Source: Myroides sp. JBRI-B21084 (GTDB lineage: Bacteria > Bacteroidota > Bacteroidia > Flavobacteriales > Flavobacteriaceae). From it: DNA of 64,000 bases. Positions 6,165 through 46,828 of this stretch are shown piece after piece. Position 1 is the first letter of the stretch; each line of letters begins with the position of its first letter. The notes beneath the pieces were generated by a model that ran no database searches, was not told the DNA's origin, and saw nothing but the letters and a program-made list of their open reading frames with translations. The stretch covers positions 1,054,001 through 1,118,000 of the forward strand of contig NZ_CP120653.1 in assembly GCF_030545015.1 (NCBI RefSeq), given 5' to 3'. The position numbers and the translations under genes were made by a program.

Positions 6165-6174
6165 TTTTCTTTTT

Positions 6175-6345
6175 GGGCGTTCCCCTTACAAACTACCTTA
6201 GCACTAAATACAAGTAAAAATAACCAAGCAGTACAACAAAACATAGCGTTAAATAGGCGGGTCGGGCTGTATACTCATAGCTTTTATCGGCGCTTCGAGT
6301 GCCTCAGCCGCCAATAAAAGGCTATCCGCTGCCATCCCTAACGCA
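6175..6345 (+). repeat. Structured intergenic repeat, copy A (possible ncRNA)
   Basis: A GC-rich element in AT-rich surroundings. It begins GGGCGTTCCCCT (6175), contains GCGGGTCGGGCT (6257-6268) and ends CCATCCCTAACGCAG. The first and last blocks pair as GCGTT (6177-6181) with AACGC (6340-6344). An internal hairpin pairs 6278-6291 with 6310-6324, with one bulge and one mismatch. A second copy in the opposite orientation lies at 14265-14364 and shares the same three blocks in the same order. The architecture recalls flavobacterial dispersed structured elements such as the Rfam flavo-1 motif, but I could not run a covariance search. It lies just upstream of the RHS remnant. Confidence 0.65.
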
Positions 6346-6399
6346 GGCTTGCAGTTTTTAAAGTTGTTTAAGACTTAATATTCCTTTTGTGAAAAAAAC

Positions 6400-7488
6400 A
6401 TGCATTTCATTCTAAATGCAAATTCAAAAAAACCAATTTGGTGGTATCATACCGACCATTTAGGTAGTTCAACTTATTTGACTGATTATTTCGGAAGACC
6501 TTCTCATTATTATGAAACATTGCCGTTTGGTGAGATGATGGTAGAACACAACCAAAGTGCCAATGTGCCGTCTGGTGTGGGTTATGACAACAAGTTTAAG
6601 TTCAACGATTTCGGAGGAGAAAGCGGGCTGAGCTTTGGACGAACGAACCGCGCAAAGCGCTGAGTTAGACGACGCCACCCAAATGTATTATTACGGCGCA
6701 CGTTATGGAGTTTATGCTGAGCCCGACGAAGTAACCCAAGAATCAGTATATTTGTAAGTGTGGATCCGCTGGCGGAACATCCAAAACAAATTGGATCATC
6801 ACCTTATATTTATGTTGCTAATAATCCTATCAATCTAATAGATCCTACGGGAATGATTTGGGAAAGACCGGAAGATAAAAGGCGTCTAGAAAGTGATATT
6901 AAAAGTAAGATTAAAAGTAAGATTAAAAGTCATGAGGGAGAAATTGCTAATCTTACTGAATCCTTAACAAAGGAAACAAAAGAAAAGAAAATCAATTCAA
7001 TAAATAGTCAGATTAACGACTATAAAGAAAGGATAGGCTTGTTAAATCAATCTTTAAATGATGTTGAAATGTTAGATCAGGATTCTAGAAGTTATTTTCT
7101 AGAAGATTTGCCTGAAAATGCAACTAATGCTTTTGTACATGCAGACGGAGGTAATATATATATACAGGGAACAAATACGAGCGAGCATTTACATGAAATT
7201 AGACATATTGGACAGTTTTTAGAAAATGGAAGACAGTTATCTACTATTCCCAAAGATGGATTTAATAGATTGAAAAATCCGGGTAAAACACTCGAACAAG
7301 CAACTTTTAATGAAGTTCAAGCATATCAAATCCAAGCAGCTTATGGAGGGAATGGAAGTGTTGGAATGCAAAATGTAAATTTTATAAAGGACATAGATGC
7401 GGCTAAAATTAACAGGAATAAGCGTCATTCAGACGGTACGGCTATGTATAAATTTATAGAAGATTATTTAAAAGGACAGAAGAAGTAA
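6400..7488 (+). pseudogene. RHS-repeat toxin C-terminal tip, interrupted; HExxH metallopeptidase-like end
   Basis: Only the last part of an RHS/YD-repeat protein remains. The core end starts near 6400 with WWYHTDHLGSSTYLTD and LPFGEMM. It continues in another frame as ELDDATQMYYYGARY (6664-6708) and returns to the first frame as NPRISIFVSVDPLAEHP, then NNPINLIDPTGM. Two GC-rich insertions split the core; in-frame stops are TGA at 6661-6663 and TGA at 6718-6720. The variable tip (~6850-7488) has a coiled-coil-like Lys/Glu region, then LHEIRHIGQ (an HExxH motif) and FNEVQAYQIQAAYGG, which could supply a third zinc ligand. The GTG at 6760 is a chance start inside the old frame. A full RHS protein is far longer, so this is an orphan tip or relic. 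The tip itself is intact. Confidence 0.75.
6898..6930 (+). repeat. 12-bp tandem repeat inside the RHS tip
   Basis: ATTAAAAGTAAG is repeated 2.75 times, encoding the IKSK-IKSK-IKSH run of the tip. As a multiple of three it keeps frame and can expand or contract by slippage. Confidence 0.8.
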
Positions 7489-13968: not shown

Positions 13969-14079
<111 letters not shown>

Positions 14080-14086
14080 TTTTAGT

Positions 14087-14198: not shown

Positions 14199-14264
14199 GT
14201 TTTACCACAGATTGCACTAATTACCACTGATTTTTTTACAATCTATTGAATACAATCAACAATC

Positions 14265-14364
14265 TGCAATAGGGATGGAGCGTTTGTTGGAGCTATTTGT
14301 TTTTGCTAAAAAACAAAAGCGACTCGCGAGAGCCCGACCCGCAACGTAGTGGAGGGGATTGCCC
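14265..14364 (-). repeat. Structured intergenic repeat, copy B (possible ncRNA)
   Basis: Read on the minus strand it begins GGGCAATCCCCT, contains GCGGGTCGGGCT and ends CCATCCCTATTGCAG, the same three blocks as copy A at 6175-6345. The outer stem is GCAAT with ATTGC, so both strands differ from copy A (GCGTT with AACGC) while pairing is kept. The internal hairpin pairs TTTGTTTTT with AAAAACAAA around TAGC. The spacer between the first and second blocks is only about ten bases, against about 70 in copy A. Confidence 0.65.
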
Positions 14365-14390
14365 AAATGTAAAACACTTAACTTAGGATA

Positions 14391-46535: not shown

Positions 46536-46609
46536 GCCTCTGTAGCTCAGCTGGCTAGAGCAGCTGATTTGTAATCAGCAGGTCGTGGGTTCGAGTCCCT
46601 CCAGAGGCT
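46536..46609 (+). tRNA. tRNA-Thr (anticodon TGT), copy 1
   Basis: Acceptor GCCTCTG pairs with CAGAGGC, the anticodon loop is TTTGTAA (TGT), the T arm is GTGGGTTCGAGTCCC-like, and the discriminator is T. CCA is not encoded. Confidence 0.95.
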
Positions 46610-46642
46610 CAAGTTCTTTTAAAATTGAAAAAATTAAGTTTT

Positions 46643-46716
46643 GCCTCTGTAGCTCAGCTGGCTAGAGCAGCTGATTTGTAATCAGCAGGTCGTGGGTTCG
46701 AGTCCCTCCAGAGGCT
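46643..46716 (+). tRNA. tRNA-Thr (anticodon TGT), copy 2
   Basis: Identical over 74 bases to copy 1, with a 33-base spacer of different sequence between them. Confidence 0.95.
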
Positions 46717-46749
46717 CAATTTTCAATTTAAAATAATACATTTACATTT

Positions 46750-46823
46750 GCCTCTGTAGCTCAGCTGGCTAGAGCAGCTGATTTGTAATCAGCAGGTCGT
46801 GGGTTCGAGTCCCTCCAGAGGCT
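46750..46823 (+). tRNA. tRNA-Thr (anticodon TGT), copy 3
   Basis: Identical over 74 bases to copies 1 and 2, with a 33-base spacer before it. A terminator follows at once. Confidence 0.95.
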
Positions 46824-46828
46824 CAAAA

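Follow-up and report, generated by a model that had tools for sequence, protein, structure and literature searches.

The window analysed here (64,000 nucleotides of contig NZ_CP120653.1 from Myroides sp. JBRI-B21084) carries two copies of a structured element, A and B, whose extents were taken from matches to the model R1, described below. Copy A (6172 to 6347, minus strand) is neighboured on one side by queA and on the other by reading frames with a weak match to the Rhs core, and copy B (14263 to 14367, plus strand) follows a 5S rRNA gene (13969 to 14080, plus strand). Four near-identical copies, B among them, are situated 162, 183, 183 and 318 bp beyond a 5S rRNA gene; the B type thus recurs after four 5S genes of the genome and travels with the rRNA operons. 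The Rhs-core remnants beside A extend over 6400 to 7488 (22.4 bits, under the cut-off of 32.5), and an Rhs motif, DDATQMYYYGARYGV, adjoins five related copies of this genome (L007 to L011). Elsewhere in the window, three tRNA-Thr (TGT) genes stand in tandem at 46536 to 46824.

Both copies contain three sequence blocks in the order given by the preliminary description, GGGCGTTCCCCT, GCGGGTCGGGCT and CCATCCCTAACGCAG in A and GGGCAATCCCCT, GCGGGTCGGGCT and CCATCCCTATTGCAG in B, with a hairpin of differing sequence between the second and third, as described there. The outer stems could be located as well. In A, the 5' strand of this stem P1, GCGTT (6340 to 6344), pairs with AACGC (6177 to 6181), and in B GCAAT (14266 to 14270) pairs with ATTGC (14358 to 14362). 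Inside P1 of A, a stem P2 joins GGG (6336 to 6338) to CCC (6264 to 6266), an upper hairpin P3 that varies among copies covers 6281 to 6321, and a further arm P4 (6182 to 6262) brings GACCC (near 6260) and GGGG (near 6182) together around some 70 nt of T-rich sequence, all on the minus strand; P3 of B was placed at 14292 to 14320 on the plus strand by its minimum free energy (MFE) fold. The strands had initially been assigned the other way round, since A folds as the minus and B as the plus strand. The plus strand of B folds better than shuffled sequences (z -2.35), unlike its minus strand (z 0.09). For A the MFE was no better than that of shuffles (z 0.22), and the outer stem as first drawn is missing from the MFE folds of both copies.

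Copy A belongs to the Rfam family Flavo-1 (RF01705), with a minus-strand match at 6256 to 6353 that scores 43.1 bits against a gathering cut-off of 42. The earlier suggestion of a flavo-1 relationship thus holds for A, while B lies below the reach of this model and gave no RF01705 match even at E<=5. The two sites are no chance resemblance: model R1, for which 14 class II relatives were aligned with A and B left out, recovers both A (51 bits, E 9.6e-11) and B (38 bits, E 1.9e-7) and found no third site in the window at E<=10, its E-values being rough; the assignment of B to class II is through R1 and not through RF01705. That A and B are copies of a Flavo-1-type element is very probable. They are members of a family of short, dispersed, structured non-coding repeats found across Flavobacterium and its relatives, which comprises Rfam's Flavo-1 (class I) and a form with a three-way junction (class II) that stands outside Rfam's model. 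Flavo-1 itself is known: a 2010 publication includes it as a candidate RNA of Bacteroidetes (PMC2864571), it is counted among abundant sRNA families (PMC9029176), and a transcriptome study of 2021 reported no real clue to its function (PMC9723704). The structural class II and the evolutionary evidence presented here are new; a literature search, which covered few subscription papers, found neither class II nor its spread described.

Class I has the sequence TAGCCCNGAT-N-GNA-RY-GGM-ATC-C-(hairpin P3)-GAT..GNA-RY-GNA-N-AGCNGG..GCTCC, with an A-rich stretch after it. The ends of class II differ from this in the outer stem P1 (GCGTT/AACGC and variants), AGGGAT and the second hairpin P4, which comes after GCCCGACC; its terminus is CGCCC followed by A-rich DNA. 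Both classes are thus built on one common arm, to which class II adds P1 and the second hairpin to form a three-way junction. Inspection by eye shows that the internal purine loops are conserved, as is an extrahelical C. P3 is widely variable, some types such as CCACGC-T(n)-GCGTGG recurring. A second motif, AGAGCGACCRRAGGAAGCTCC, with a variant in L196, is nested in P3 of five class I copies (L183 and L195 to L198).

The common arm covaries, and this covarying arm belongs to Flavo-1. Among 109 class I copies, 100 could be parsed and 9 could not; the pair at position n is Watson-Crick in 99 of these 100 (shuffles: mean 35.8, maximum 52), as A-T in 44, G-C in 37, T-A in 15 and C-G in 3 copies, and the pair at position b is Watson-Crick in 92 and uses all four types (shuffles: mean 36.8, maximum 52). 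In class II (42 copies) parsing failed at the 5' arm in B and at the 3' arm in 7 of the other 41, and the n pair is formed in 34 of the 34 copies parsed. The proposal that the outer stem covaries is borne out by these 41 copies, which all pair through four stem types (GCGTT/AACGC 22, GCGTG/CACGC 17, GCGCT/AGCGC 1, GCGTG/CATGC 1), the 3' strand having been picked partly by its pairing. In 20 further copies, mostly from more distant genomes, 97 of 100 cells of P1 pair (shuffles: mean 76.5, maximum 88) with ends taken from the R1 match, which lean towards pairing because R1 itself models the P1 pairs; in this set, both sides of the stem change at four of its five positions. The class II seed alignment, scored with 17 pairs that we had written from that same alignment, has 100% of cells paired against 91.5% in shuffles and a covariation of 0.253 against 0.099, while its further pair types are as many as in shuffles (9 vs 9.0).

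Mismatches within the stems are strongly strand-dependent. Lone non-Watson-Crick pairs amid good pairs of the upper stems, read on the Flavo-1 strand, are G.T in 32 cases, A.C in 1, A.G in 9 and others in 7, counted over 121 distinct stems with identical stems taken once and seven copies, B included, not delimited. The lower arm has 16 G.T and 2 A.C. If both strands or neither mattered, G.T and A.C should be alike in number, so that the excess of G.T shows that one strand matters. Since the ratio is 15:1 also where both neighbouring genes run antisense, the folding of the Flavo-1 strand does not depend on the genes around it. Clearly, one strand evolves to retain its fold. The conserved fold of the preliminary description is thus supported as a one-strand fold, with RNA and single-stranded DNA both compatible. 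Counts relative to replication were 25:31 and 41:37, without bias, with origin and terminus guessed from the GC skew of the fetched loci; single-stranded DNA of the lagging strand is therefore not supported.

Further copies are numerous in this genome and in related ones, and the supposed multicopy state is evident. In the 2.51-Mb genome of the strain RF01705 matches 13 sites (E<1e-5) and R1 18 (E<0.01), four of the latter being of the B type, and three relatives assembled in one contig have 78, 56 and 15 RF01705 copies at E<=1e-4. Altogether 40 of 60 genomes, the strain's own included, were positive, with copy numbers from 0 to 78 within one genus. At E<=1e-5, R1 matched 18 of the 118 Bacteroidota genomes drawn; of these 18, seven come from beyond the order, in other families of the same class, and one from another class. 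From a set of 142 copies (50 of the 78 of G036, 50 of the 56 of G010, 10 of the 15 of G022, 14 of G000 and 18 from other genomes; L018 and L024 were excluded as too short) 134 are intergenic. Distances to gene starts are rough, because the gene calls came from a simple script that takes the longest frame, and gene names such as lepA, maleate isomerase and PASTA were read from translations, without family search. In 20 of 53 cases an opposing gene has its stop codon within 12 nt of the class I 3' end, compared with 16 of 151 for the other sides, the limit of 12 nt having been set after the distances were seen. A role as intrinsic terminator is not supported, the element lying between divergent genes 25 times and between convergent genes 14 times. 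No transposase was seen among the 25 largest clusters of recurrent neighbour genes, which are mostly loci common to several species. A search of phage and plasmid records with one class I copy gave no match, and a class I pattern that fits only 32 of the 109 known copies matched no viral contig. A class II pattern matched 8 viral contigs, of which 7 look element-like by eye, two of them with identical sequence, and one (L310) chance-like.

At some orthologous sites the element is inherited. Between G010 and G036, with 50 copies each, 17 pairs share homologous flanks on both sides and the same orientation; in another set the orientation is opposite (L036 vs L088 and L144). Upstream of a PASTA-like gene, the element was seen by eye in 22 of 29 readable intergenes of close orthologues and is absent from 7, three of the 22 being displaced with only the 3' end in view. 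At this site 17 of the 18 orthologues that could be parsed have CG as the outer pair, compared with 32 of 100 copies overall (p 5e-8). At a maleate-isomerase locus class II is present in three genomes (G000, G022 and G027; L105 to L107), and no class II was seen in the other readable loci there, several of which have another upstream gene. The presence and absence at orthologous sites is compatible with past copying and so with the mobility suggested earlier, as is the sharing of hairpins set out below; neither a precise empty site nor a target duplication was seen, and no mobiliser was found. In one close pair of copies, conservation above the flanks was not significant (0/67 vs 8/163 changes, p 0.11).

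P3 differs between orthologous copies while the structure is kept. In the strain's own genome the upper hairpins of the class I copy L001 and the class II copy L011 are identical at 36 of 38 positions, and L001 and its orthologue L077 agree at 22 of 39 positions of the hairpin and at 51 of 60 of the 3' flank. An upper hairpin common to both classes implies copying. The exchange of hairpins may have run in either direction, and two copies of G022 (L095 and L098) also carry the L001 type. On the sequences compared, the simplest account would be that the outer arm is passed on by descent and the inner hairpin by exchange; the alternative is a very rapid change of P3 under pairing constraint.

Several functions could account for such a repeat. 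As a cis-acting RNA, the Flavo-1 strand would bind a regulatory protein within untranslated regions and the copies would form one post-transcriptional regulon, a reading we hold to be possible, if rather unlikely. The strong bias of G.T over A.C and the retention of the structure at orthologous sites agree with it, and so does the position of class II before lepA, where by eye it lies in sense, 10 to 100 nt past a TAnnTTTG motif, in at least 7 of 17 loci of Flavobacterium or Flavobacterium-like genomes (L210 to L226); the same order recurs by eye in two Aquimarina loci (L230 and L272). Orientation is mixed, however: where the neighbours are co-directional, antisense copies outnumber sense ones by 60 to 33 (p 0.007), a count that includes eight closely related class II copies of this genome, and for class I alone the ratio is 41:26 (p 0.09). 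The TAnnTTTG motifs are no better support for such a regulon, entering the 109 class I copies within 120 nt 12 times in sense and 23 times from the 3' side, and leaving them within 150 nt 20 times from the 5' side and 42 times from the 3' side. In the F. psychrophilum study the hits are reported to be sense and antisense alike, many of them outside transcribed regions (PMC9723704). A trans-acting small RNA gene we regard as very unlikely in spite of Rfam's typing (Gene; sRNA) and the strand-specific fold: there are dozens of copies with differing upper hairpins, TAnnTTTG is not consistently upstream (12 motifs for 109 class I copies, at varied distances), and transcription was reportedly mixed or absent in that one published transcriptome (PMC9723704). 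A DNA feature of the host chromosome, an extruded hairpin that is immobile today and to which a nucleoid or repair protein binds, would fit the intergenic copies at orthologous sites across species, and also the fact that the searches of phage, plasmid and viral collections did not turn up class I. It is nevertheless improbable, since the wobble bias is confined to one strand, the copy number of 0 to 78 in one genus marks the element as dispensable, and the upper hairpin common to both classes implies copying.

A further candidate is the cognate REP of a Bacteroidetes RAYT transposase of subclass 2.6, which we consider quite improbable. In its favour, strings like the class I 3' end stand beside two RAYT genes (GGGATAGCTCC at L074/L290 and GGGAAATAGC at L072/L301), and Flavo-1 copies of G036 lie 1.2 kb from a RAYT-like gene (gene 127731 to 127967, copy 129179 to 129279) and 0.7 kb from an IS200-like Y1 gene, neighbours that would not be very unlikely by chance with 78 copies in 3.49 Mb. 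Apart from this one G036 gene, no copy was found flanking a RAYT gene in the loci scanned or read by eye. Several RAYT genes are instead flanked by another hairpin family of the GGCACGGATTGCAAATCCGCGCTATCGGG type, and some genomes rich in Flavo-1, among them G004, G029 and G030, lack any Y1 match. RAYT-like hits, after manual sorting, occurred in 12 of 24 copy-rich and 4 of 12 copy-poor genomes (p 0.48). In eight loci (L069 to L076), five of them with a readable RAYT-like frame, RF01705 gave no match at E<=0.01, and in 20 Y1 loci scanned it gave one, by an IS200-like gene (L053); 20 further regions, 15 with a readable frame, had their flanks judged by eye. RAYT genes between inverted GGCACGGATTGCAAATCCGCGCTATCGGG-type hairpins were seen at L297, L298, L303, L304 and L307. 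Since RAYT-like hits do not track copy number and Y1 genes are rarely close to copies, a RAYT or other Y1 transposase as current partner is weakened. Reverse transcriptases were considered as well, RVT_1 matching 10 of 14 chosen genomes (9 of 10 copy-rich, 1 of 4 copy-poor); an association with copy number may exist, if weak. None of ten such loci, two of them group II introns, has an R1 match at E<=0.1 or Flavo-1 above its cut-off, and the copy-rich G013 lacks an RVT_1 match, so that we rejected this partner too. Four Flavobacterium genomes (L397 to L400) encode a reverse transcriptase of 350 to 366 aa with a conserved leader, which we read as retron-like.

We tentatively favour, while giving it somewhat less than an even chance, a non-autonomous, REP-like dispersed repeat that is recognised as a folded single strand and copied in trans. 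The folded Flavo-1 strand, working as single-stranded DNA or RNA, would be recognised by a factor through its internal purine loops (GNA/GNA, A.G) and the extrahelical C, independently of base-pair identity. Copying by this factor would seed elements between genes, in many cases directly after a stop codon, and might still swap the inner hairpin of resident copies, selection on the fold keeping copies intact between such events. We infer both the recognition through loops and the copying by a trans-acting factor. Against copying, no mobilising gene was found; the absence of class I from the phage, plasmid and viral collections is odd for an actively jumping element, and copies retained at old sites fit a function for the host as well as a selfish one. 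More specifically, and doubtfully, classes I and II could be two forms of an unrecognised element found throughout Bacteroidota that moves as a folded single strand, homes into resident copies and overwrites their inner hairpin while the outer arm is inherited vertically, by an enzyme unlike RAYT. Given that the wobble bias is strand-specific, orientation is mixed, copies persist at orthologous sites and inner hairpins are shared, the question shifts from which sRNA this is to what recognises the folded strand. Since the class II model finds members missed by Rfam, the family becomes countable and testable.

Compared with Rfam's Flavo-1, the elements share the common arm, the strand and the occurrence in Bacteroidetes, and A exceeds the gathering score, whereas the 76-position model of RF01705 includes neither P1 nor the P4 hairpin and misses B; what Rfam types as a small RNA gene appears here as a dispersed repeat in either orientation. 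With the REP/RAYT (TnpAREP) systems of subclass 2.6 they have in common short imperfect intergenic palindromes in many copies, and REP hairpins are recognised as single strands (PMC6006769). They differ from these in that a cognate RAYT was not found, the RAYT genes here lie beside another hairpin family, and copy number has no significant link to RAYT. Integron attC sites are recognised as a folded single strand in which base-pair identity is free and unpaired loops and an extrahelical base matter, and are defined by an R box (GTTRRRY/RYYYAAC) together with an integrase gene. Flavo-1 may be likened to them in the folded strand, the free base-pair identity, the unpaired loops and the extrahelical base.
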